From a virus: a stretch of DNA of 48,062 nucleotides. The stretch lies in IMG/VR virus record IMGVR_UViG_3300028146_000015, positions 1 through 48,062 of that record. One strand, 5' to 3'. A program made the position numbers and the translations under genes. Under the pieces are notes generated by a model. That model had not been told where the DNA came from, made no database searches, and saw nothing but the letters and a program-made list of their open reading frames with translations. Shown here one piece after another: positions 2,347-33,771 of the stretch; position 1 is the first letter of the stretch; each line of letters opens with the position of its first letter.

Positions 2347-3776
2347 GGCTGGCTGACCGGCTGGGGCTGACCCGCCGCGCGGGCTACTGGGAGGGCGCGG
2401 CATCAGGCGCGGCCGTGCTGACGTCCAGCTACGGCTCCCCGGACCGTGAGCCGGTTTTGCCGCAGCTGGCCCAGTTCGCGCAGCAGGCGTACGGGTCCAG
2501 CAGCCCGGTGTTCGCAGCGTCGCTGGTGCGGATGGCGCTGTTCTCCGAGATCACGTTCCAGTGGCAGGCGAAGGACGACAAGCACCTGTTCGGGAACCAG
2601 GCGCTGGCGAAGCTTGAGACCCCGTTCGGGCCGGGCACGACGACGCAGATGCTGCTGTCCCGGATGGAGCAGGACGCGTTCCTCGCCGGGCAGGCCTACA
2701 TCTGGGATGCTCCCGGTCAGGACCGGCTGGTGCGGCTGCGGCCGGACTGGACGACGATCGTCTCCGAGCTGGTGCAGGCGGCCGGCGGCGGCTGGTACCG
2801 GCGGAAGGTCGGCTACTGGACGGAGCCGCCCAAGTCGGTGACCGGGCAGGGCGACGGCCAGTTCTACCCGGCGGCCGAGGTGGTCCACTGGGCGCCGGTC
2901 CCGGACCCGTGCGCGGACTTCCGCGGCATGTCCCCTTTGACGCCGGTCGTCCGGGACATCCAGGGCGATGACGGGATGGGCCAGTACAAGGTCCGCTACC
3001 TGCAGAACAACGCCACCCCGAACATGATCATCCGGTACGCGCAGAAATTGCAGCCGGGCACGGTGGACTCCCTGCGAGAGCGGATGGCGGCCCGCTACGG
3101 CGGCCCGGACAGCGCCGGGAAGACGCTGATCCTGGACCAGGGCGCTGACCTGACCCTGGCGGGGAACTCGCTGGCGCAGATGGACTTCTCCAACGTGCAG
3201 TCCGCGGGCACGGAGCGGATCCTGGCGGCGTGCATGGTCCCGGCGGTCCTCGTCGGTCTGGAGCCGCTGCGGGGCGCGGGCCGCGGCTACCAGGAATCGA
3301 TGCAGAAGCTGGCGAACATCTGGGCGCGCCCGACGTGGCGGTCGGCGTGCGGCGCTTTGGAGCAGCTGCTCGACGCCCCGGCGGGGAACCGGCTGTGGTT
3401 CGACACCTCGGATATCGCGGCGTTGCAGGACGGGGAGATGGAGCGGGGGCAGACGGTGCTGGTGAAGGCGCAGGCGGTGCTGGCGCTGAACCAGGCGCAG
3501 AAGTACGACCCGGCCTCGGTCATCACCGCCGTCGACTCGGGTGACCTGACGCAGCTGAAGCCGCTTCCGCCGGCGGCGCTGGCCCCGGCTGGCGGCGCGG
3601 CGGTGCAGCACCTGCTGCCGCAGGCGCAGCCGGGCGCGACCGCGACCCCGCTGCCAGCCTCGCTGCCCCGCCTGCCGGTGGGGTCGACGTCGCCGGGTGA
3701 CGGCGGCAACGGCTCCCGGCCGACGCCCCGCCCGTCGTCGGCGCGGCGGGCACTGAACGGAGCCGGGCATGTCTGA
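2343..3776 (+). CDS. Portal protein (HK97 family)
   Basis: The 477-residue product forms the dodecameric ring through which DNA enters the head. Recognisable family features are R-L-R-P-D-W near residue 130, the central V-R-Y-L-Q-N-N-A-T-P-N segment, S-A-G-K-T-L-I-L-D-Q-G, and the stretch A-A-C-M-V-P-A-V-L-V-G-L that precedes Y-Q-E-S and the A-R-P-T-W helix. The last 70 residues are a low-complexity Pro/Ala/Gly tail. The GTG start overlaps the preceding stop. Position after terminase and before protease and capsid fits the standard siphovirus head order. Confidence 0.92.
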   Translation: MRLADRLGLTRRAGYWEGAASGAAVLTSSYGSPDREPVLPQLAQFAQQAYGSSSPVFAASLVRMALFSEITFQWQAKDDKHLFGNQALAKLETPFGPGTTTQMLLSRMEQDAFLAGQAYIWDAPGQDRLVRLRPDWTTIVSELVQAAGGGWYRRKVGYWTEPPKSVTGQGDGQFYPAAEVVHWAPVPDPCADFRGMSPLTPVVRDIQGDDGMGQYKVRYLQNNATPNMIIRYAQKLQPGTVDSLRERMAARYGGPDSAGKTLILDQGADLTLAGNSLAQMDFSNVQSAGTERILAACMVPAVLVGLEPLRGAGRGYQESMQKLANIWARPTWRSACGALEQLLDAPAGNRLWFDTSDIAALQDGEMERGQTVLVKAQAVLALNQAQKYDPASVITAVDSGDLTQLKPLPPAALAPAGGAAVQHLLPQAQPGATATPLPASLPRLPVGSTSPGDGGNGSRPTPRPSSARRALNGAGHV

Positions 3777-3954
3777 GCGCATTAGGGCGACGCACCCGGA
3801 TTGCTTCCGGAGTGGCGCGTGGGCGCGACTGGTCGGCACCACGTCACTGCCTGGATTCCCTGAGGGTGACCGGGATTGCTACCTAGTCGAGTTCCCGGAT
3901 GGCGTCACGGATTTCTGGGCTATCAGCGCGGAGCACGGGTATGAGCTCGCCTAG
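3769..3954 (+). CDS. Small conserved-type phage protein
   Basis: A 61-residue protein overlapping the portal end by 8 bases. It is rich in aromatic and acidic residues, ending Y-L-V-E-F-P-D-G-V-T-D-F-W; the pattern H-P-D-C-F-R-S-G-x-W-A near the N-terminus and the beta-strand look suggest a small compact domain. Comparable short genes often sit between portal and protease in actinophages, but I do not know a function. Reading-frame statistics and coupling support it being real. Confidence 0.6.
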   Translation: MSERIRATHPDCFRSGAWARLVGTTSLPGFPEGDRDCYLVEFPDGVTDFWAISAEHGYELA

Positions 3955-4936
3955 CCCGGCCGAGTCGTGGGCGGTGGCGTGGGCTGGCGGGATGGCGGAC
4001 CCGGCGGTGCGGTTCAACCCGAACCACGCGGCGGCGGGCAGCGCGAACGGCGGCCAGTTCGCCTCATCCGGCAGCGGCAGCGGGAGCGCCAAGGGCGGCA
4101 GCGCGTCCGCTCACCAGGCCCACGTCGCGCACGTCGCCCACGAGAAGCACGTTGCCGCGCTCGCGGCGGCTGCGCCCGCCACGGCGGCGCGCAAGAAGTC
4201 GCTGCTCAGCCAGGCGCACGCCGACCGCGAGAAAGCCGCCGAGCTGGAGAAAGAGCTCAAGGGCCTCGAGCAGCAGCAGGCGAAGGCCGCGCAGGCGGCC
4301 AAGCACGCCAAGGCGGTAGCCGCGCACGCGAAGGGCGGCGCGGTGCAGCACCACACCGCCGCGCACAAGGCCCACAGGAAGGCCACCGCGCACCACGCGT
4401 CACTGAAGTCCCGCATCGGCGGCCTGCGCGACCAGATCGCTGAGCTGACAGATAAGGCGAAGGCCCTCGAGGCGGAGGCGGCGAGGCTGTTATGGCGGGC
4501 GACAGCGGCATCCCGGGCCACTTCCCGCACCAGCTGGCCGACTGGTGGGAGCGCGGCGCGGGCGCGGCGAAGATCCGCTGGGGCGAGGGCGGCGACTTCA
4601 TGCGCTGCGTGCGCCTGGCGGTCGGTGAGGCGCACATGGACCCGGAGCGGGCCAAGGGGTTCTGCGCCGAGCGCCACCACGCGGTCCTCGGCATCTACCC
4701 GGCCACGCACGCGGCGATGGAACACGGAAGGGCGGCAATGGCGGACAGCAAGCAGCCTTACGGCGACGTCACGTACGCCGACCCCGGCTACCAGGCCGAC
4801 GGCAAGAAGCGCTACCCGCTCGACAGCGTCGAGCATTGCAAGGCCGCCTGGTCCTACATCAACCAGGCAGGAAACGCCGCCCAGTACACGGCGGAGCAGC
4901 TGTCAGCGATCAAGGGGCGCATCAAGTCCGCGCTGA
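3941..4936 (+). CDS. Coiled-coil/scaffold-like protein, out of frame with the protease
   Basis: From ATG 3941 the first about 183 residues are convincing protein: A-V-R-F-N-P-N-H followed by a Gly/Ser linker, then an Ala/Lys/His/Glu-rich coiled coil resembling a scaffold (delta) region. After about 4490 the frame stays open to 4936, but the translation becomes Arg/Ser/Thr-rich shadow sequence while the neighbouring frame carries the protease. In the actinophage proteases I know, the F-N-P-N-H linker and coiled coil are joined in frame to the protease. So this is either a separate scaffold protein with an odd tail, a frameshifted fusion partner, or a mutation. Confidence 0.6.
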   Translation: MSSPSPAESWAVAWAGGMADPAVRFNPNHAAAGSANGGQFASSGSGSGSAKGGSASAHQAHVAHVAHEKHVAALAAAAPATAARKKSLLSQAHADREKAAELEKELKGLEQQQAKAAQAAKHAKAVAAHAKGGAVQHHTAAHKAHRKATAHHASLKSRIGGLRDQIAELTDKAKALEAEAARLLWRATAASRATSRTSWPTGGSAARARRRSAGARAATSCAACAWRSVRRTWTRSGPRGSAPSATTRSSASTRPRTRRWNTEGRQWRTASSLTATSRTPTPATRPTARSATRSTASSIARPPGPTSTRQETPPSTRRSSCQRSRGASSPR

Positions 4937-17223: not shown

Positions 17224-18282
17224 ATGCGCTGGCTGATCGTTCATCCCGGGCCGAACTTCTCCGTGGACGATGTCTTCCGGGGCTGGGCGGAGGCGCTGCG
17301 GGCGGCCGGCGAGCAGGTCATGGAGTACAACTTCGACGACAGGATGCTGTTCTTCGGCTCGGCGCTGATGCCAGACCCGGCGGCGGTCCCGGACGCGGAC
17401 GGCCGGTCGCTGGCCCGCCAGGCGATGACCCAGGAGCAGGCGGTGGAGAACGCCGCCGACGGGCTGGCGGGCGCCTGCTACAAGTGGTGGCCCGACGTGG
17501 TGCTGTGCGTCAGCGCGTTCTTCATCCCGGAGTTCTACCTCCAGGTGATCCGCGCCCGCCGCCACAAGGTCGTGATGCTGTTCACCGAGGCGCCCTACCA
17601 GGACAGCGAGCACCTGGTCATGGCGCAGTACGCCGACGTGTGCCTGGTCAACGACCCGGTGAGCATCGGCCGCTACCGCGAGGTATGCCCCGTCACCGAG
17701 TACGCCCCGCACTCCTACCGGCCTGCCGTGCACTACCCGGCGCCGGCGGGGACGGTGCCGGACCTGGACCTGGCGTTCGTCGGGACGGGGTTCCCGTCGC
17801 GGATCGCGTTCTTCGAGGAGATGGGCCTGGACGGCCTGGACGTGGCGCTCGGCGGCCTCTGGCCGGGGCTGGCGGCCGGTTCGCCGCTGCGCCCGCACCT
17901 GCTGCCGGCGGCGGACGGCGGCGACGGGTGCATCGGCAACGCCGAGACGGCGGCCCTGTACCGGCGGTCAAGGACGGGCATCAACTTCTACCGCCGCGAG
18001 GCCGAGCCCGGCTGGGACGGCCAGGGCTGGGCGTGCGGGCCCCGGGAAATCGAGATGGCGGCGTGCGGGCTGTGGTTCGCCCGGGACCCGCGCGGCGAGT
18101 CCGGGGAGCTGTTCGGTTTCCTCCCGGAGTTCACCAGCCCCGGCGAGGCCGCCGACGCGATCAGGTGGGCGCTCGCGCACGACCGCGAGCGGGAGAAGGC
18201 GGCCGTGATGGCACGGGAGGCCATCGCGGACCGGACGTTCGGAAACGCGGCGAAGCGGCTGCTGACGCTGCTGGACAAGTGA
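17224..18282 (+). CDS. CgeB-like glycosyltransferase
   Basis: 352 residues from the ATG directly after the neck gene. The N-terminus W-L-I-V-H-P-G-P-N-F-S-V-D-D and a Rossmann-like two-domain layout fit the GT-B-type CgeB/DUF3880 group. Supporting elements are V-V-M-L-F-T-E-A-P (about 117-125), L-A-F-V-G-T-G-F-P-S-R (about 184-194), L-Y-R-R-S-R-T-G-I-N-F-Y (about 245-256) and C-G-P-R-E-I-E-M-A-A-C-G near 280, the donor-binding part in this family. It interrupts the connector-to-tail gene order and is a second transferase, which argues for virion glycosylation. Confidence 0.75.
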   Translation: MRWLIVHPGPNFSVDDVFRGWAEALRAAGEQVMEYNFDDRMLFFGSALMPDPAAVPDADGRSLARQAMTQEQAVENAADGLAGACYKWWPDVVLCVSAFFIPEFYLQVIRARRHKVVMLFTEAPYQDSEHLVMAQYADVCLVNDPVSIGRYREVCPVTEYAPHSYRPAVHYPAPAGTVPDLDLAFVGTGFPSRIAFFEEMGLDGLDVALGGLWPGLAAGSPLRPHLLPAADGGDGCIGNAETAALYRRSRTGINFYRREAEPGWDGQGWACGPREIEMAACGLWFARDPRGESGELFGFLPEFTSPGEAADAIRWALAHDREREKAAVMAREAIADRTFGNAAKRLLTLLDK

Positions 18283-18297
18283 GAGGCAGGGCGCATC

Positions 18298-18723
18298 GTG
18301 GCAAGGCACGCAGGCCGGAACGGCAGGATCTACCTCGGGGTGGCGAACAGCGCGGCGCTGGCGTCGCCGCTGCCATTCCAGGCGTCATGGAGCATCAACC
18401 AGGCGACCGACAAGGAAGAGGTCACCGCGTTCGGTGACACCAACAAGGTGTACGTCGCCGGGCTGCCTGACAGTAACGGCGACTTCGGCGGGTTCCTCGA
18501 CGACGCCACCAGCCAGACGTTCATCGCGGCGATCGACGGGCAGCCGCGCAACTTCTATTTGTATCCCGACACCACGCTGTTCCCGAATAACTGGTACTGG
18601 TTCGGGACCGTCATCGCGGACGCGAGCTCGGACGGGTCGGTGGGCGGCCCGGTGAACTTCAAGTCGACCTGGTCGGCCGCGTCCGCGGTCCTGCGCTACA
18701 CCCCGCTGGGCCTGAACACCTGA
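18298..18723 (+). CDS. Major tail (tube) protein
   Basis: 141 residues from GTG 18298. The start R-N-G-R-I-Y-L-G-V-A, W-S-I-N-Q-A-T-D-K-E-E-V-T-A-F-G-D-T-N-K-V-Y-V-A-G-L-P and the D-G-Q-P-R-N-F-Y-L-Y-P-D segment have the beta-barrel tube protein look, and the gene lies between neck and tail chaperone genes as expected. It is on the short side for the family. Hexameric rings of it would form the tail tube. Confidence 0.85.
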   Translation: MARHAGRNGRIYLGVANSAALASPLPFQASWSINQATDKEEVTAFGDTNKVYVAGLPDSNGDFGGFLDDATSQTFIAAIDGQPRNFYLYPDTTLFPNNWYWFGTVIADASSDGSVGGPVNFKSTWSAASAVLRYTPLGLNT

Positions 18724-19208
18724 TGACCACCGTCGGCGAGGTCGCGATCCAGCTGGGCGCGATCTCCGCGCGGCTGCGGGAGGCCGCTGACGGCGGCCTC
18801 GCCCGGCGGCTCAGCCAGGGCATCGGGAAGGCCGTGGAGCCGCTCGAGCGGGAGGTCCGCGACGGCCTGCGCCCGCGCATGCCCGACCGGTACGCGGACC
18901 TCATCAACGCCGAGCTGAAGGTCACCCGCCGCACTTTCCAGGATCCGGACGGCGCGCGGGTGACCGTGTTCGCGCAGGCCACCGGCGGCGGCAAGCGGAG
19001 GATCAGGCGCCTGGACGAGGGCATCTTGTGGCACCCGCTGTTCGGCCGGTTCCCGCGCGGCGACCCGCGTAACCGGTGGTTCGAGATGGGCGAGCCGCAC
19101 GTGCGGCCCGGCTGGTGGTCCGACGCCACCGAGAAGGCCGCGCCCCGCGTGCGGCAGGAGATCGTGGACGCCCTGAACGACATCACGGAGAGGATCGTGC
19201 ACGGTTGA
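18723..19208 (+). CDS. Tail completion/minor tail protein
   Basis: 161 residues, its ATG overlapping the tube-protein stop (TGATG). It has an N-terminal helix (L-G-A-I-S-A-R-L-R-E-A-A-D-G-G-L-A-R-R), then R-M-P-D-R-Y-A-D-L-I-N and a basic centre with W-H-P-L-F-G-R, and H-V-R-P-G-W-W near the end, as in HK97 gp10-like proteins, where a phenyl/tryptophan-rich end follows a basic core. In order it would normally precede the tube gene; here it follows it. Confidence 0.6.
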   Translation: MTTVGEVAIQLGAISARLREAADGGLARRLSQGIGKAVEPLEREVRDGLRPRMPDRYADLINAELKVTRRTFQDPDGARVTVFAQATGGGKRRIRRLDEGILWHPLFGRFPRGDPRNRWFEMGEPHVRPGWWSDATEKAAPRVRQEIVDALNDITERIVHG

Positions 19209-19606
19209 AGGTAGTCATCAACGGGGAGACGTTCGACTACGACCAGGACCGGCGCCCCATGAGCGAGGCGCTGGCGATCGAGAAGGAGTGCGGCCGCCGG
19301 TACGCCGAATGGGAATCGGAGCTGTTCGGCGGCTCCGCCTGGGCGATGGCGGTGCTGGCGTGGCTGATCTGGCGGCGCGAGGGCCGCGAGGTGCCGCTGG
19401 CGGACATCCTCGATGGCACGGTGGACTTCGACTACATGGAGTACGAGGTGTCCATCCTGCGGGCATCAGCCGAGGCGAAGGCGGCGCGGGAAGCCGAGGC
19501 GAAGGCGGCGGCGGGAAACCCTACATCCGGGGCCGACCCGGCCCCGGATGGCACACCTACGACGCCGGCCGCTACGAAGCCCTCTTCTCGGAAGTCCTCC
19601 ACATAA
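19205..19606 (+). CDS. Tail assembly chaperone, short form (G-like)
   Basis: 133 residues from TTG 19205, which overlaps the previous stop. Helical and acidic: M-S-E-A-L-A-I-E-K-E, then a tryptophan-rich helix A-W-A-M-A-V-L-A-W-L-I-W-R-R-E-G-R (about 40-56), and a Lys/Ala/Glu-rich end. This is the usual look of the abundant chaperone that binds the tape measure during tail assembly. Near codon 103-105 the frameshift signal diverts some ribosomes to the longer product. Confidence 0.88.
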   Translation: MKVVINGETFDYDQDRRPMSEALAIEKECGRRYAEWESELFGGSAWAMAVLAWLIWRREGREVPLADILDGTVDFDYMEYEVSILRASAEAKAAREAEAKAAAGNPTSGADPAPDGTPTTPAATKPSSRKSST

Positions 19607-19695
19607 GGCCGTGGGAGATCCCGCTGCTGACGACTGACCAGTTCGACTCGCTGATCAATTACCTGCACGAGACCAACCGCGCCGGCAGCGGCTAG
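19205..19695 (+). CDS. Tail assembly chaperone, frameshifted long form (GT-like)
   Basis: A -1 shift at the heptamer 19513-19519 joins the first 105 codons to a 58-codon extension (H-T-Y-D-A-G-R-Y-E-A-L-F and W-E-I-P-L-L-T-T-D-Q-F-D are its clearest parts), giving 163 residues and a stop at 19693-19695. Short and long forms made in a fixed ratio are conserved in long-tailed phages; the T-like extension recruits the tube protein. The extension has proper protein character only in this frame, which supports the fusion. Its TAG stop shares the palindrome CTAG with the stop of the opposite-strand gene. Confidence 0.9.
19513..19550 (+). promoter_or_regulatory. Programmed -1 ribosomal frameshift signal
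   Basis: The slippery heptamer G-GGA-AAC (19513-19519) lies in the right phase of the short chaperone frame. After a 4-base spacer, CATCCGGGGCC (19524-19534) pairs perfectly with GGCCCCGGATG (19540-19550) around a 5-base loop, giving an 11-bp GC-rich stem. This is the textbook arrangement of a stimulatory stem after an X-XXY-YYZ site. Confidence 0.93.
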
Positions 19696-19904
19696 GCGTC
19701 CCGGGGCGCGTTCCCGTGCCAGGCGCGGATGAACCACACGGGTGCCCAGAGGCCGCCGGTGAAGACGGTGAGCAGCAGGTGCAGGATGTGCTGCCCGGAA
19801 GTGAGCGGCGTCCGCGCGGGCGACGGCGTCGCGGGTGGCGCTGATTCCCGGGCGCCTATCTTCTCATCGGCCCACCGCTGGTACGCGGCACGTGGGCTGG
19901 TCAT
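19692..19904 (-). CDS. Small membrane protein of the reverse cassette
   Basis: 70 residues on the minus strand from ATG 19904, with GGAGAG upstream, overlapping the antitoxin stop (ATGA). A polar Pro/Ala/Ser-rich N-terminus is followed by one membrane segment: H-I-L-H-L-L-L-T-V-F-T-G-G-L-W-A-P-V-W-F-I (about 43-63), ending W-H-G-N. Small proteins with this H-L-x-L-T-x-x-T-G-G-L-W-A-P-V-W signature occur in actinobacteria, role unknown to me. Position after an antitoxin gene makes it a candidate partner. Confidence 0.65.
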   Translation of the reverse strand: MTSPRAAYQRWADEKIGARESAPPATPSPARTPLTSGQHILHLLLTVFTGGLWAPVWFIRAWHGNAPRDA

Positions 19905-20197
19905 GGCTTCTCTCCTTGCTGCTGGCGAATAATTGCCTGGCGCGCCGCCTCGCCGATCGCTACGCATTCCTCGCACGCGTATGCCCCGACAGGCACGTCC
20001 TTATAGCAGACATGGCAGATAGCGGGATGCCGCTCAAGTACCTTCTGCACCCCGTCGTGCCATTCGGCGGGGACGACGACGGCGACCGGCTTGCCGTACT
20101 TGGTCACGGTGACGTGGGCCTCGCCGTGCTCGACGGCTCCGAGGATGTCGCCGAAGTTCCGCCGCGCTTCGTTGGCACTGATCTCTTCATCGCTCAC
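19901..20197 (-). CDS. Phd/YefM-like antitoxin with C-terminal zinc-binding motif
   Basis: 98 residues from GTG 20197, which has GGGAG 5 bases upstream and overlaps the preceding stop; a longer ATG start at 20209 is less likely. Residues 4-45 match Phd/YefM: I-S-A-N-E-A-R-R-N-F-G-D-I-L-G, then V-T-K-Y-G-K-P-V-A-V-V-V-P. A C-H-V-C ... C-E-E-C pair (about 61-75) adds a probable zinc ribbon, not usual for the family. Such proteins bind DNA and neutralise a RelE- or Doc-like toxin, but no such toxin is adjacent. It may act as a regulator only, or use an unknown partner. Confidence 0.75.
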   Translation of the reverse strand: MSDEEISANEARRNFGDILGAVEHGEAHVTVTKYGKPVAVVVPAEWHDGVQKVLERHPAICHVCYKDVPVGAYACEECVAIGEAARQAIIRQQQGEKP

Positions 20198-20358
20198 GCG
20201 TGCTCCCATTCCACTTCGCACGGGCAGCCGGGGATCAGGCACCCGTCGCCATCGCGCCAGTCATGCCACGCGCCCTTGTGCTCGGTCGCGTCATGGCCGC
20301 AATCACAGCCAGGAAACATCTGGACTGAGTCGTAATCGGCCCAGTCATCATCGCTCAT
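20194..20358 (-). CDS. Cys/His microprotein, first gene of the reverse cassette
   Basis: 54 residues on the minus strand from ATG 20358; its stop overlaps the antitoxin start (GTGA). It is strongly acidic and has C-D-C-G-H-x4-H and C-L-I-P-G-C-P-C, a C-x-C-G-H ... C-x4-C-x-C pattern that should bind zinc. The same kind of motif appears in the 268-residue early protein at 35224. The -10-like element ends 7 bases before the ATG, although AGGAAA could also serve as a ribosome site. Function unknown. Confidence 0.55.
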   Translation of the reverse strand: MSDDDWADYDSVQMFPGCDCGHDATEHKGAWHDWRDGDGCLIPGCPCEVEWEHA

Positions 20359-20365
20359 TTTCCTG

Positions 20366-20393
20366 AGAATACTGCGAACCGCACAAAAAGCAA
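20366..20393 (-). promoter_or_regulatory. Putative promoter of the reverse cassette
   Basis: On the minus strand TTGCTT (20393-20388) and TATTCT (20371-20366) are separated by 16 bases. The -10 element ends 7 bases before the ATG at 20358, so transcription would start at or very near the start codon, as in leaderless actinobacterial mRNAs. It fires against the tail operon. Confidence 0.5.
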
Positions 20394-20405: not shown

Positions 20406-23099
20406 TTGACGAGCGAGACCCTCAAATTTGACGTCCTGACCACCGCTGACACGCGCGGCCTCAAGGACACCGCCCGTGACTCGACGCTGGCAAGCAAGGC
20501 CGTCAAGGAGCTCAGCGACAAGCTAGCGACCCAGAGCAAGACGGCGCAGGTATCGGCCGGGGCGACCCTGTCCATGGCGAAGGCCGATAAGATCCTCGCC
20601 GACGCCGAGGACGTGCTGAGCGTCAGCTCCGAGGAAGCCTCCCGGCAGCTGCGGCAGCAGGGCCGCGCCGCCGAGGAAGCCGCCATCAAGACCAGGCTCG
20701 CCGGGGAAGCGGCCAAGGGCGCGGGCGGCGGGTTCGGGCTGCTGGCCACCCCGATGGGCGCGGCGGTCGCCGCCGGGGTGGCGCTGGCGCCGGTGGCCGT
20801 GACGCTCGCCGCCGGGCTGGGCGGCCTCGGGCTGGCGGCGCTGTCGGCGTCCAAGGACACCAAGGCCATGGCGACGATCCTCGGCCCGCTGAAGTCCGAG
20901 CTCGCCCAGTTCGACGCGTCCCTGAAGCCGGAAGTGCTGCAGATCTTCGGCGACGGAGCCAGTATCGCCGGGCAGGCCCTCCATGACCTGCAGCCGGTCG
21001 CGGCGGCAACGGGAAAAGCCTTGCACGGAGTGCTCGGCGAGATCGGGGCCGAATTTCGCTCTGGCGAGTTCCAGCAATTTTTCACTTTCCTAGCTCGCAC
21101 CGCCGGCCCCGACCTGCAGTTCCTCGGGAGCCTGTTCGTGAACCTGGCCGCCGACATCCCGCCGGTACTGGAGACGCTGCAGCCGGTCGCTACCGGGCTG
21201 CTGAAGATCACCGACGCGGTGGCGGCGCTCCCCGCCGCGCTCGACCAGGTGAAGGCGAAGACCGGGGCGAACCAGCCGGGGTTCTTCGGCGGCACGGGCC
21301 TGGACCGGATCCGGGAGTTCATCTCCTGGGGCGAGAAGCACATCCCGGCGGGCAACAAGTCCATCTCGGACCTGATCGGCCTGACCGGCCGGGCCGCGTC
21401 CGGCACGTCCGGGACGGCGACGGGCATCGCGTCCGTGGCGGCTGCCGCTGCCCTGGCCGCGCCGAAGGTCGGCACCCTGGCCGGTGACATCGCCATCCTT
21501 AGCACCACCACGAGCATGTCAACGCTGGCGCTGCAGGCGTACAGCGACCTGTGGAACCTGTTCGTGGGCAACACGGTGTCCGACCAGCAGGCGGTGCTGT
21601 CGGTGACGGCTGCGTTCGAGGCGTTCGACGCGGCGGTGAAGCAGGGCGGCCGCACGTCGACGGCGGCGCAGCAGGCGTTCCTGTCTATCTTCACCACGAT
21701 CGGGTCCGGCCTGGACACGCTGCAGAAGAACGGCGCCAGCGTCTCCCAGGTGAACGATTTCTACCTGACCAGCATCAGCCGCCTCCGCGCCCTGCACGGG
21801 CTGACCCCGCAGCAGAAGGCCGACGTGCAGGGACTGACCAAGGACTACCAGGCGTGGGCGAACAGCGTCACGGGGCTGAGCGGCAACGTGGTCAAGGCGG
21901 CGGGTGACCTGCGTGGCTCCTTCCTATCGGCGATGGCCCTCACCCACCGGCTGGTGCCGACGGCGAAGCAGGACGCCGACAACTTCGCCGACGCGGTCCT
22001 GAAGACCGGCACGAACTCCCGCGCCACCAAGCACGACCGGGACGTCCTCATCGCCGACCTGGTCCACTCGGGGCTGTCAGCGGATGACGCCAAGGCGCGG
22101 GTCAAGGCCTTCCAGGACAACATCAACGCGCTGAAGGGCAAGACGGTCCCCGTGGACGTGACGGCGTCCGGCTCCGGCGGCATCGTGGTCACGGCCGGGC
22201 AGCTCGCAAGCAAGATCTTCAAGCTGTCCCACCTGGCGGCCGGCGCCCGGATACCGGGGTTCGGCGGCGGCGACGTCCACCCGGCGCTGCTGGAGGGCGG
22301 CGAGACGGTCGTTGACAAGCACACGTCCCGGCAGCTGGCCGGGGTGTTCAAGGCGGCCGGGGTGCCCGGCTACGCGGGCGGCGGCATCGCGGGCACGGTC
22401 CCGTTCGTCGCGGGGCAGGCGGCGGCTGACATCGGCGGGTGGGCCGGCAGCGACGTCTCCTCGCTGGTGAACTCGATGATCGCGGCGTTCAAGGCGACGA
22501 CCGGGTTCCTCGGCGCGGGCAGCGGCAACTACGCGGCCGACATCACCACCGTGCTGCGGGCGATGGGCCTGCCACTGAGCCTGGTCGGCAACTGGATGTC
22601 CCAGATACAGACGGAGTCCGGCGGCAACCTGCGGGCGGTCAACCTGACCGACTCCAACGCTCAGGCGGGGCACCCGTCCGTCGGGCTGCTGCAGCTGATT
22701 CCGGCGACGTTCGCGGCCTACGCGGGCCCGTACCGGAACACGCCGCCGCTGGTCAACTACGGCGGCGGCCCGGTGTCCGAGGACCCGATGGCGCAGATCT
22801 ACGCCGCGATCCACTACGCGGCCGCCAGGTACGGGGGCGCCGGGATGGCGTCGGTGATCGGGCACGGGCACGGCTATGACCGGGGCGGCTACCTGCCGAC
22901 GGGCTGGTCGATGGCCTACAACGGCACCGGCCGCCCTGAGCCCGTCATCCCCGCCGGCGGCGGCGGCCAGGTGATCCGGCTGGAGATCAGCGGCGGCCAG
23001 TCGGAGTTCGACCAGTTCATGCTCCGGTGGATCAAGGGCCGCGTGCGGGTCCTCGGCGGCCGGGGCCCCGGCAACGTCCAGCTCGCGTTCGGGAACTAA
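20406..23099 (+). CDS. Tape measure protein with transglycosylase domain
   Basis: 897 residues from TTG 20406, with GGGAGGG upstream. The N-terminal third is helical (V-K-E-L-S-D-K-L-A-T-Q), then come hydrophobic Gly/Ala/Val segments (about 115-150 and 325-345) that could insert in the host membrane. Near residues 720-800 a lytic transglycosylase (SLT) domain is clear: W-M-S-Q-I-Q-T-E-S-G-G-N with the catalytic Glu, S-V-G-L-L-Q-L-I-P-A-T-F, and A-I-H-Y-A-A-A-R-Y-G. It sets tail length and locally opens peptidoglycan at DNA entry. A stretch at about 21000-21110 uses AT-richer codons. Confidence 0.93.
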   Translation: MTSETLKFDVLTTADTRGLKDTARDSTLASKAVKELSDKLATQSKTAQVSAGATLSMAKADKILADAEDVLSVSSEEASRQLRQQGRAAEEAAIKTRLAGEAAKGAGGGFGLLATPMGAAVAAGVALAPVAVTLAAGLGGLGLAALSASKDTKAMATILGPLKSELAQFDASLKPEVLQIFGDGASIAGQALHDLQPVAAATGKALHGVLGEIGAEFRSGEFQQFFTFLARTAGPDLQFLGSLFVNLAADIPPVLETLQPVATGLLKITDAVAALPAALDQVKAKTGANQPGFFGGTGLDRIREFISWGEKHIPAGNKSISDLIGLTGRAASGTSGTATGIASVAAAAALAAPKVGTLAGDIAILSTTTSMSTLALQAYSDLWNLFVGNTVSDQQAVLSVTAAFEAFDAAVKQGGRTSTAAQQAFLSIFTTIGSGLDTLQKNGASVSQVNDFYLTSISRLRALHGLTPQQKADVQGLTKDYQAWANSVTGLSGNVVKAAGDLRGSFLSAMALTHRLVPTAKQDADNFADAVLKTGTNSRATKHDRDVLIADLVHSGLSADDAKARVKAFQDNINALKGKTVPVDVTASGSGGIVVTAGQLASKIFKLSHLAAGARIPGFGGGDVHPALLEGGETVVDKHTSRQLAGVFKAAGVPGYAGGGIAGTVPFVAGQAAADIGGWAGSDVSSLVNSMIAAFKATTGFLGAGSGNYAADITTVLRAMGLPLSLVGNWMSQIQTESGGNLRAVNLTDSNAQAGHPSVGLLQLIPATFAAYAGPYRNTPPLVNYGGGPVSEDPMAQIYAAIHYAAARYGGAGMASVIGHGHGYDRGGYLPTGWSMAYNGTGRPEPVIPAGGGGQVIRLEISGGQSEFDQFMLRWIKGRVRVLGGRGPGNVQLAFGN

Positions 23100-30531: not shown

Positions 30532-30846
30532 CTAGGTTAGCGGGAATCCCGGCTTCCACTCGGCCGCCTGGTAGTCCGGGTGATCACTGAATCGCCACGC
30601 CCGCAACCTGATGACCTCTTCAAGCGCCTCGCAGTAGCCGAGCTTGTACTTGCCAGGCAGTAGCCCTTTGGCCAGCGCGTATTTTGCCAGCAGCCCGCGA
30701 TCGGCCGCGATGTCCCGCAGGATGGGATCTCTCCATGACGACTGGTCCGTGCATGGCGGCCAGTGGTTGGCGTCGAGGCAGCCGCAGACCTCCGCCGGCT
30801 GCGCCTCGTCCAGCCGCGCCGAGTAGAACGCGATCAGCTCATCCAT
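30532..30846 (-). CDS. DUF6221-like protein (copy 1)
   Basis: 104 residues on the minus strand. M-D-E-L-I-A-F-Y-S-A-R-L-D-E, C-G-C-L, then R-D-I-A-A-D-R-G-L-L-A-K-Y and the end W-R-F-S-D-H-P-D-Y-x3-E-W-K-P is the layout of the DUF6221 family. A second member lies at 46587. A -10-like TAGGGT ends 6 bases before the ATG, so the mRNA may be leaderless. Expressed against the late operon, probably from the prophage or early. Function of the family unknown. Confidence 0.72.
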   Translation of the reverse strand: MDELIAFYSARLDEAQPAEVCGCLDANHWPPCTDQSSWRDPILRDIAADRGLLAKYALAKGLLPGKYKLGYCEALEEVIRLRAWRFSDHPDYQAAEWKPGFPLT

Positions 30847-30852
30847 GCGCTC

Positions 30853-30858
30853 ACCCTA
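30853..30858 (-). promoter_or_regulatory. Putative -10 element of the DUF6221-like gene
   Basis: TAGGGT on the minus strand (TAnnnT) ends 6 bases before the start codon, the spacing of a leaderless start. No good -35 is visible, so support is weak. Confidence 0.35.
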
Positions 30859-30924
30859 ACGGCGCTCATGGCACGATGGCCACCCCCGCGAGGCTGGCCA
30901 CCCCGAGCGCCACGCGGCTCACCG

Positions 30925-31062
30925 CTAGACGCGGTTGAGGCCGTCGAAGTTGGCCATGCTCGGGCCCTCAGCCAGGACGATGTACGGCCACTCCTGGCCG
31001 TACGGCGCCCCGTGCTGGGATCCCTGCATCTGCGCGTTCATTGTGCCTTTGTCGCCGCCCAT
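30925..31062 (-). CDS. Small protein, unknown
   Basis: 45 residues on the minus strand from ATG 31062, chosen because AAAGGAAAC lies just before it; a longer start at 31110 lacks one. It is Gly/Gln/Met-rich (M-N-A-Q-M-Q-G-S-Q-H-G-A-P-Y-G-Q-E-W-P-Y-I) and ends with S-M-A-N-F-D-G-L-N-R-V. Not recognised. Confidence 0.5.
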   Translation of the reverse strand: MGGDKGTMNAQMQGSQHGAPYGQEWPYIVLAEGPSMANFDGLNRV

Positions 31063-31120
31063 GATCGTTTCCTTTCGCCCGTGCTGCCCTGCACTGCGCA
31101 GGATAGCCACGCTCTCCCCG

Positions 31121-31522
31121 TTACTTCCCGCGCATCTCCCGCGCCCGCGCGGCGAGGGCGTCCATGACGTCCATCAGGTCGCTGAGCTCACGGTGGGGAC
31201 CGGACTCGACGCGGTCCTCCGGCGCCGGGAGGGACCCGTGGTAGCGCAGCGGCCCCGCGTCGGAGGGCGACGTCCAGAACCGCGCCTCCGGGTACTTCTC
31301 CGCGAAGGCGTCCCGCCGCTGGGATGCCTCGGCGAGGCGGCTGAGGTAGTCCATGACGACGCGGAGGTCATGGGACTGGGCCAGTTCGCGGTTGCTCGCG
31401 TCGCGGGCGCGCCACAGCGGCGCCCGGACTGACTCGTCCAGGGTGATCACGCCGCCGGTCTCCTGCTCCCAGCTGACCCGCAGCGCCGTGTTGTCCCGCT
31501 GGCTGCCCGCGTGCACCGTCAT
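31121..31522 (-). CDS. Unknown soluble protein of the reverse-strand trio
   Basis: 133 residues on the minus strand, ATG 31522 with GGGGAGAGG upstream. Charged and probably mixed alpha/beta, starting T-V-H-A-G-S-Q-R-D-N-T-A-L-R-V-S-W-E and containing the helix M-D-Y-L-S-R-L-A-E-A-S-Q-R-R-D. Its 5' leader holds a 10-bp inverted repeat (31542-31579) and a CCCCTTTAAGGGG palindrome. Not recognised; position between lysis genes and regulator suggests a lysogenic accessory gene. Confidence 0.6.
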   Translation of the reverse strand: MTVHAGSQRDNTALRVSWEQETGGVITLDESVRAPLWRARDASNRELAQSHDLRVVMDYLSRLAEASQRRDAFAEKYPEARFWTSPSDAGPLRYHGSLPAPEDRVESGPHRELSDLMDVMDALAARAREMRGK

Positions 31523-32184: not shown

Positions 32185-32329
32185 CCGGCACCGGGAAAAG
32201 CCGCTCAGCCTACGCCTTGGGGCTGAGCGGCAGCCGGTAGAGGAAGCCGCCGAGCGGGACGGCGTCCCGGTGCGGCAGTGGATACTCGCCGCGATCCGCG
32301 AGCGGCTGGCGCGGCAGTCCCCGCAGTAG
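32165..32329 (+). CDS. Small ribbon-helix-helix-like protein
   Basis: 54 residues from ATG 32165 (ATG 32177 possible). After a basic start it reads K-P-L-S-L-R-L-G-A-E-R-Q, then V-E-E-A-A-E-R-D-G-V-P-V-R-Q-W-I-L-A-A-I-R-E-R-L, the strand-helix-helix layout of small CopG/Arc-type DNA-binding proteins. It sits directly before the integrase gene and may regulate integration, or serve as a directionality factor. Both ideas are inference. Confidence 0.55.
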   Translation: MTSAMPDRHREKPLSLRLGAERQPVEEAAERDGVPVRQWILAAIRERLARQSPQ

Positions 32330-32363
32330 CGTCATCCACCGCAGCACGGCGGGGCGTGTGTGC

Positions 32364-32369
32364 TAGCAT
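32364..32369 (+). promoter_or_regulatory. int: Putative -10 element of the integrase gene
   Basis: TAGCAT (TAnnnT) ends 7 bases before the GTG at 32377, and no ribosome site is visible, so a leaderless transcript is likely. The -35 side is not convincing. Confidence 0.4.
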
Positions 32370-32376
32370 CACGCAC

Positions 32377-33771
32377 GTGAGAGCAGTTCTTTACGCGAGG
32401 CAGAGCCTCGACAAGGCCGGCACTGGCCTCGCTGTCGCCCGCCAGCTCGCCGAGGACGAGCGGCTGTGCGAACTGCGCGGGTACGAGGTCGTCGCCCGCG
32501 AGTCCGACAACGACATGTCCGGCTACTCCGGCAAGGCCCGGCCAGGCTATGAGCGGGTCATCGCGCTGATGAGGTCTGGCGCCGTGGACGTCGTCGTCGT
32601 GTGGGCCGTCGACCGGCTGACCCGCAGGCTCGCCGACCTGATCGCGCTCATCGACCTGTGCGAGCAGACGGGGGTGAGGGTCGCCACCGTGTCCGGGGAC
32701 CTGGACCTGTCCACCCCCTCCGGGAAGCTGGTGGCCCGCCTCCTCGGCTCCGTCGCCCAGGGCGAGGTGGAGACCAAGAGCGCCCGGCAGCAGCTCGCCG
32801 AGCGGCAGGCCGCGCAGGCCGGCAAGCCCCGGCTGGGGACGCCGCGGCCGTTCGGCTGGCAGCCTGACCGCGTCGCCCTGGACGAGGCGGAGGCCGCCGC
32901 GGTCGCCGACGCCTGCACGGTGCTGCTGTGCGGCGGCACCATCACCGGCGTGTGCCGCGACTGGGAGGCACGCGGGCTGCGGCCGCACCAGGCGCCGTTC
33001 GGGCCGCTGCGCGAGCACCCGTGGACCACCACCAGCGTCCGGGCGATCCTCCGCAACCCGCGCAACGCCGGCATCGCCGTGTACAAGGGGGCCGAGGTCG
33101 GCCGCGGCCAGTGGCAGGAGATCGTCGCCGAGCCGACGTGGCGGGCGGTGGCGGCGCTGCTCGCCGACCCGGGGCGCAAGCCGTCGCAGGGGGTGCGGTC
33201 GCTGCTCGGCCGGGTGGCGCTGTGCCGCTGCGGCACGTACGTGACCGGCAGCAGGGGCGCCAACGGGCAGCCGTCCTACCGCTGCCACATCCCGGCGCGC
33301 GCCGGCCGGGAGGGACCGCACGTGTTCACCAGCCGTGCCCCCGTTGACGCCTACGTGGAGGCCGCGACCGTCGCGTGGCTGGCCAGGCCGGGCAACGCGG
33401 AGCGGCTGGCCCCGGCGCGGGGTGACGGCGCGGGCCCGCTGCGCGAGGAGGCCGCCGCGATCCGGGCGCGGCTGGCGCGGCTCGGCCCGCTGTTCGCCGC
33501 CGGGTTGATCAGCGAGCAGGACATGACCGGCGGCCGGGCGGCCGGTGAGGCGCGGCTGGCGCAGATCGGGGCCCGGCTCGCTGAGATGGGCCGCGAGTCG
33601 GCGCTGGCGCCGTTCGCCGCCGGGCGCGACGTGCGGGAGACGTGGGCGGCGCTGCTGCCCGACCGGCGCCGCGCCGTCATCGCCGCCGTGTGGGAGGTCA
33701 CCCTGCTGCCGTCCGGGCGCGGGAACCGGGTCTTCCGCACCGAGACAGTGCGGCTCATGCCGCGCGCCTGA
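32377..33771 (+). CDS. int: Serine integrase (large serine recombinase)
   Basis: 464 residues from GTG 32377. The catalytic domain has R-A-V-L-Y-A-R-Q-S with the nucleophile Ser10, then R-P-G-Y-E-R-V, V-V-V-V-W-A-V-D-R-L-T-R-R (about 69-81) and S-G-K-L-V-A-R-L. The recombinase domain follows (G-W-Q-P-D-R, L-R-N-P-R-N-A-G-I-A-V-Y). A zinc-ribbon-like segment (L-C-R-C-G-T-Y-V, Y-R-C-H, about 282-310) and a helical end with the coiled-coil part (A-A-I-R-A-R-L-A-R-L) complete a compact member of the family. It would insert the genome by recombining attP with attB. Confidence 0.95.
   Translation: MRAVLYARQSLDKAGTGLAVARQLAEDERLCELRGYEVVARESDNDMSGYSGKARPGYERVIALMRSGAVDVVVVWAVDRLTRRLADLIALIDLCEQTGVRVATVSGDLDLSTPSGKLVARLLGSVAQGEVETKSARQQLAERQAAQAGKPRLGTPRPFGWQPDRVALDEAEAAAVADACTVLLCGGTITGVCRDWEARGLRPHQAPFGPLREHPWTTTSVRAILRNPRNAGIAVYKGAEVGRGQWQEIVAEPTWRAVAALLADPGRKPSQGVRSLLGRVALCRCGTYVTGSRGANGQPSYRCHIPARAGREGPHVFTSRAPVDAYVEAATVAWLARPGNAERLAPARGDGAGPLREEAAAIRARLARLGPLFAAGLISEQDMTGGRAAGEARLAQIGARLAEMGRESALAPFAAGRDVRETWAALLPDRRRAVIAAVWEVTLLPSGRGNRVFRTETVRLMPRA

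Follow-up and report, generated by a model that had tools for sequence, protein, structure and literature searches.

Small membrane proteins encoded by prophages are an established means of blocking the injection of phage DNA, with HK97 gp15 and P22 SieA as examples, and in Gram-positive hosts the membrane proteins of Tuc2009 and TP-J34 also block it (PMC10883804). The tape measure protein (TMP) has been implicated in the exclusion by TP-J34 and by HK97 (PMC10883804). In the annotated record of HK97, we observed that gp15 occupies precisely the gap that separates the frameshifted tail chaperone from the tape measure gene. Another arrangement is that of Tab of the Pseudomonas phage JBD26, whose gene sits within the late operon but on its minus strand, has its own promoter and is expressed by the prophage, and whose product targets the tape measure protein of rival phages (PMC10884400).

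The DNA analysed here (the window, i.e. the whole stretch of 48,062 bases) is an IMG/VR virus record with an overall GC content of 71%. It codes for a portal, a protease, a capsid protein, a GH25-type lysin, and a tail module that includes a tape measure protein. It also carries a serine integrase, and the phage, an actinobacterial one, is therefore temperate. The features of the cassette and its surroundings are the following.

18723-19208, plus strand: gp10-like tail component (phrog_11991), the query used to find relatives with an empty site
19205-19695, plus strand: tail assembly chaperone G/GT, TTG start at 19205; left neighbour, convergent with the cassette
19692-19904, minus strand: phrog_2697-like predicted membrane protein, 70 aa, one hydrophobic helix (QHILHLLLTVFTGGLWAPVWFIRA); the conserved cassette member
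19901-20197, minus strand: Phd/YefM-type DNA-binding protein, 98 aa, GTG start (PF02604, TIGR01552)
20194-20358, minus strand: Cys/His microprotein, 54 aa, accessory, with relatives in other phage contigs
20359-20393, minus strand: putative leaderless-type promoter TTGCTT-N16-TATTCT with a -10-like motif, ending 7 nt before the ATG
20406-23099, plus strand: tape measure protein (PHROG tape measure, E 6e-29); right neighbour, divergent from the cassette
32278-33771, plus strand: serine integrase, Resolvase and Recombinase domains (PF00239 E 3e-30, PF07508 E 2e-8)

A sequence-only reading of this DNA had described three overlapping minus-strand genes between the chaperone and the TMP. This was borne out, as the microprotein stop and the GTG start of the Phd-like gene overlap in GTGA, and the Phd-like and membrane genes overlap in ATGA. 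The CTAG stops that it described as shared with the chaperone gene were also found, the chaperone ending at 19693-19695 and the convergent membrane gene at 19692-19694. As is usual for this gene, the chaperone has two products; a canonical slippery heptamer for a -1 shift, GGGAAAC, lies at 19513-19519, and the -1 frame runs to 19695. The GC content of the cassette was 65.5%, against 70.6% in the tail genes on both sides.

When we compared the window with the two described systems, we observed that it combines their layouts: the junction is that of HK97 gp15, and the antisense orientation with an own promoter is that of JBD26 Tab. The position on the minus strand within a late operon is certain, while the promoter is predicted from a -10 motif present in 6 of 12 cassettes. 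As with gp15, the window has a small predicted membrane protein at the chaperone/TMP junction of a temperate siphovirus-type phage. However, gp15 is on the sense strand, has a putative terminator, has no DNA-binding partner, and comes from a phage of a gammaproteobacterial host. A BLASTP comparison of the window membrane protein with HK97 gp15 gave no alignment; we have therefore not filed it as a member of the gp15 family, and the likeness concerns the way of working only. Tab, of 83 aa, is likewise a small moron that is encoded antisense within a late operon and has its own promoter, but it lies between the terminase genes, is paired with a sense-strand anti-Tab, and has not been described as a membrane protein. 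Here the two were likened by layout and description. By analogy, the membrane protein of the window most likely works like HK97 gp15 or JBD26 Tab.

We examined the chaperone/TMP junction in near relatives whose gp10-like proteins were 70-79% identical to that of the window. The junction was empty in three of these (L007, L008 and L010), the chaperone stop abutting the TMP start in L007 and only a short spacer being present in L008 and L010. In a fourth, L009, it was occupied by a gene of the endonuclease VII family (PF02945, E 1e-14). The junction being either empty or otherwise filled, it is a site for optional genes, and the cassette is an insertion.

The membrane protein matched phrog_2697 (E 7e-10), and the core H-x2-H-x6-T-x-G-L/A-W-x3-W was present in the alignments. 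It has a single hydrophobic stretch (mean KD 1.6 over 19 aa), and the structural model placed a helix at residues 36-62 (mean pLDDT 77). The protein is thus predicted to be a small membrane protein. It had no match among plasmids and no Pfam family at threshold; DUF4234 passed only for one relative from a Streptomyces phage. The phrog_2697 and related small membrane proteins (HxxHxxLTxxTxGLWxPVW) of Mycobacterium, Gordonia and Streptomyces phages belong to the same family, but their genes lie in early-type operons and are not antisense in tail genes.

Searches with the membrane protein and its alignments gave 14 further loci (L018 tentatively) at which a relative is antisense and adjoins a gp10-like, major tail or chaperone gene. 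L047 stands for the near-identical contigs L048, L049 and L120, and L046 for L125 and L126. The junction between chaperone and TMP is used in the window and in the myophage L050, and that between chaperone and gp10-like gene in L006, L019 and L040. In the reverse order, gp10-like gene and then chaperone, the junction is occupied in L020, L021, L022 and L044, and the junction between the major tail and gp10-like genes is occupied in L005, L046, L047, L114 and L122. Gene identities were checked for L050 (chaperone and TMP) and for L020 (chaperone). With the window included, the gene is antisense at 15 of 15 loci, which are partly related and do not amount to 15 independent draws. That the junction differs between loci speaks for a membrane gene that was acquired, or has moved, more than once.

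The membrane gene has homes other than the tail module. In L058, from a Streptosporangiaceae metagenome-assembled genome, a copy 82-87% identical to that of the window lies at 800-1139 between a tRNA-like 3' end and a tyrosine integrase, and the stops again overlap. The tRNA 3' end was read by eye, and ARAGORN calls no full tRNA there; the copy is probably attachment-site-proximal and in an integrated element. The gene adjoins integrases in L052 and L027, and in L031 it lies directly behind a repressor-type HTH gene. These other homes of the membrane gene are lysogeny settings. The motif also occurs in early-type operons of Streptomyces and Gordonia phages and of cluster A mycobacteriophages. 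In chromosomes of the Streptosporangiaceae family (L075-L091), we observed longer proteins that contain the H-x2-H...GLWxPVW membrane motif. Most chromosomal motif matches were of this kind, the motif making up only part of the protein, and they were left out as members; the motif ends these proteins and may be a general membrane anchor.

The Phd-like protein scored above the curated cut-offs for its N-terminal DNA-binding domain, with PF02604 at E 8e-10 (38.8 bits, cut-off 29.8) and TIGR01552 at E 3.7e-13 (48.6 bits, cut-off 20.8). It shares with Phd/YefM antitoxins this domain and a gene that lies upstream of, and coupled to, its partner. However, no RelE, Doc or other known toxin was found among the neighbours scanned, and the C-terminus is a cysteine-rich CxxC...CxxC stretch, apparently in place of a toxin-binding tail. 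The added C-x2-C pairs proposed from the sequence, CHVC and CEEC, are both present. From these cysteines the protein is predicted to bear zinc, the match to DZR_2 being sub-threshold (E 0.045). The single-sequence model of the protein was too poor to be of use (mean pLDDT 50). When the protein alone served as query, viral contigs, genome contigs and phage records gave no relative. Most of the matches listed for 299 genomes from the family to which the L058 genome belongs covered the Phd domain only, and a simple motif scan of the one longer match among those listed revealed no pairs of CxxC. Among the cassette Phd proteins, the CHVC/CEEC tail is so far unique to the window.

An antitoxin-type DNA-binding protein lies directly upstream of the membrane gene, and overlaps it, at 6 of the 15 loci; the other nine have no such partner. 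This regulator slot is variable. It holds a Phd protein in the window, in L019 (PF02604, E 8e-13) and in L114 (E 3e-13), and a short RHH-type protein in L005, L020 and L021, of which only L021 passes a Pfam cut-off (NikA-like, TacA1), L005 and L020 being weak and judged from the sequence pattern. The exact three-gene order of the window was not found elsewhere, though the pair of Phd and membrane genes recurs in L019 and L114. It is the membrane protein and not the antitoxin that counts as the partner of importance. The conserved member of the cassette is this 70-aa protein. In L019 and L114 the Phd protein has just 58 aa, is similar to the N-terminus of the window Phd protein, and hardly extends beyond the DNA-binding domain; autorepression is therefore likelier than toxin neutralisation.

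The microprotein had no match in phages or in 201 genomes. Its relatives in other phage contigs (L002-L004) are without a Phd gene and without a membrane gene, and it is an accessory passenger. Both outer genes are under purifying selection: pN/pS was 0.35 for the membrane gene against L058 and 0.28-0.34 for the microprotein against L002-L004, and the values for the closest pairs ran from 0.17 to 0.35.

Actinobacteria commonly make leaderless mRNAs. A leaderless-type promoter had been proposed for the cassette, and its -10 element (TATTCT) is present; taken alone this is weak, as about 6% of random positions score equally, and a strict promoter scan listed none at the cassette. When the homologous cassettes were compared, 6 of 12 (window, L005, L006, L019, L020 and L047) had TANNNT ahead of their first start codon at a distance of 6-8 nt. 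The background frequency of the motif at this distance is 0.26% for all positions, 0.7% for ATGs and 3.4% for called genes. The nominal P of ~1e-10 is too optimistic, since the motif was chosen with the cassettes already in view and there is some relatedness among the loci; even so, the enrichment is large. L114 has a TTGACT...TAGGTT arrangement, as in L019. Palindromic operators in the cassette promoters were not above chance. The recurrent motif suggests that the cassette probably has its own, leaderless promoter.

The reading we prefer, at a probability of roughly one half, is that the cassette is an antisense moron, with the membrane protein serving superinfection exclusion or tail-directed defence and the Phd-like protein acting as an autorepressor. 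Late genes are silent in a lysogen; an antisense cassette that has its own promoter could still be read. The membrane protein would sit in the host membrane and hinder superinfecting phages at genome entry or via their TMP. The Phd-like protein, a relative of DNA-binding antitoxins without a toxin, would limit antisense transcription by autorepression, and the microprotein would travel along. The sequence-only reading had offered a lysogenic defence or exclusion gene set as one of two possibilities, and the context supports it: the cassette is an insertion, it has a probable promoter of its own, it is antisense in the late operon of a temperate phage, and its relatives are placed likewise.

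Its other possibility, a new toxin-antitoxin arrangement, has been weakened, given that the membrane gene stands alone at nine loci, is accompanied by RHH-type proteins elsewhere, and that the other two Phd proteins seem to lack a toxin-binding tail. A classical toxin-antitoxin pair is unlikely. We also looked for a domesticated Rel or Doc toxin, which was rejected because none is adjacent; the absence of such a partner, already stated from the sequence, was confirmed among the neighbours scanned. In a looser form, the membrane protein would be a depolarising or growth-inhibiting toxin that is neutralised, or transcriptionally held, by the upstream Phd or RHH protein. The gene order with its 4-bp coupling is like that of toxin-antitoxin systems, the Phd and membrane pair (window, L019, L114) and the RHH-type and membrane pair (L005, L020, L021) both recur, and swaps of the antitoxin family beside one partner are usual in such systems. 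Yet at most of the partnerless loci the divergent neighbour is no more than some tens of bases away, the partners outside the window consist of the DNA-binding domain only (45-58 aa), no known toxin family was matched, and the flanking cassette genes had no toxin match in Pfam, NCBIfam or PADLOC. We consider this looser form unlikely.

The occurrence of the membrane motif in early-type operons of other phages means that expression may be early lytic and not lysogenic. The membrane protein would then act early in host takeover, e.g. by blocking competing phages or altering the envelope, and the antisense site would merely fit. This is quite unlikely in our estimate, as the tail-located copies have promoter-like sequences of their own and several of the non-tail copies adjoin integrase or repressor genes. 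It could also be that the antisense transcript is itself functional, damping leaky late tail genes in lysogens by convergent or antisense transcription, with the proteins mattering little. The copies in tail modules are always antisense, with stops that overlap the convergent neighbour; but the protein is under purifying selection, it is also kept at loci that are not antisense, and close relatives without the cassette are viable, so that we regard this as very improbable.

With exclusion as the preferred reading, an unannotated and widespread family of small membrane proteins gains a testable role. The layout is repeatable: antisense, next to a tape measure, chaperone or major tail gene, with a probable own promoter. 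Annotation can easily overlook such antisense pockets, from which Actinobacteria may draw prophage-encoded defence against phages. The cassettes also provide examples in which a DNA-binding protein of antitoxin type serves although no toxin can be recognised. A wider claim would be that these cassettes form a widespread, undescribed class, one small membrane effector with interchangeable Phd/RHH proteins, making up an exclusion or toxin-antitoxin-like defence module that is mobile between tail junctions and integrase-proximal sites of temperate phages; this we find doubtful, if conceivable.

Some further observations concern the junctions and the rest of the window. Genes of the endonuclease VII family lie at junctions next to the chaperone in L009 (9028-9684), L022 (1767-2219) and L128 (2747-3265), possibly as homing-type insertions in the same hotspot. 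Together with this endonuclease gene, L128 has, between the chaperone and gp10-like genes, an antisense probable lipoprotein and an RHH-like protein (3286-3961); the lipoprotein recalls exclusion lipoproteins such as Ltp. The major tail/gp10-like junction that the membrane family uses in L047 holds, in L116 (1822-2049), an antisense 75-aa membrane protein unrelated to that family, an analogous replacement. With L128, this gives further antisense envelope proteins in the slot, a point in favour of the moron reading. Behind the membrane gene of L019 there is an MmpS-like protein (PF05423, E 0.005, below the cut-off). In the window, a further group of minus-strand genes at 30532-31522 precedes a GntR-type regulator and the integrase and is possibly a lysogeny or immunity region; the stretch at 31121-31522 on the minus strand had no Pfam match. 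Just before the major tail gene, at 17224-18282, the window carries a glycosyltransferase-like gene (PF13524, E 1e-8), unusual in a tail module, that is also present in L007-L010, L046, L047, L115, L116 and L127.
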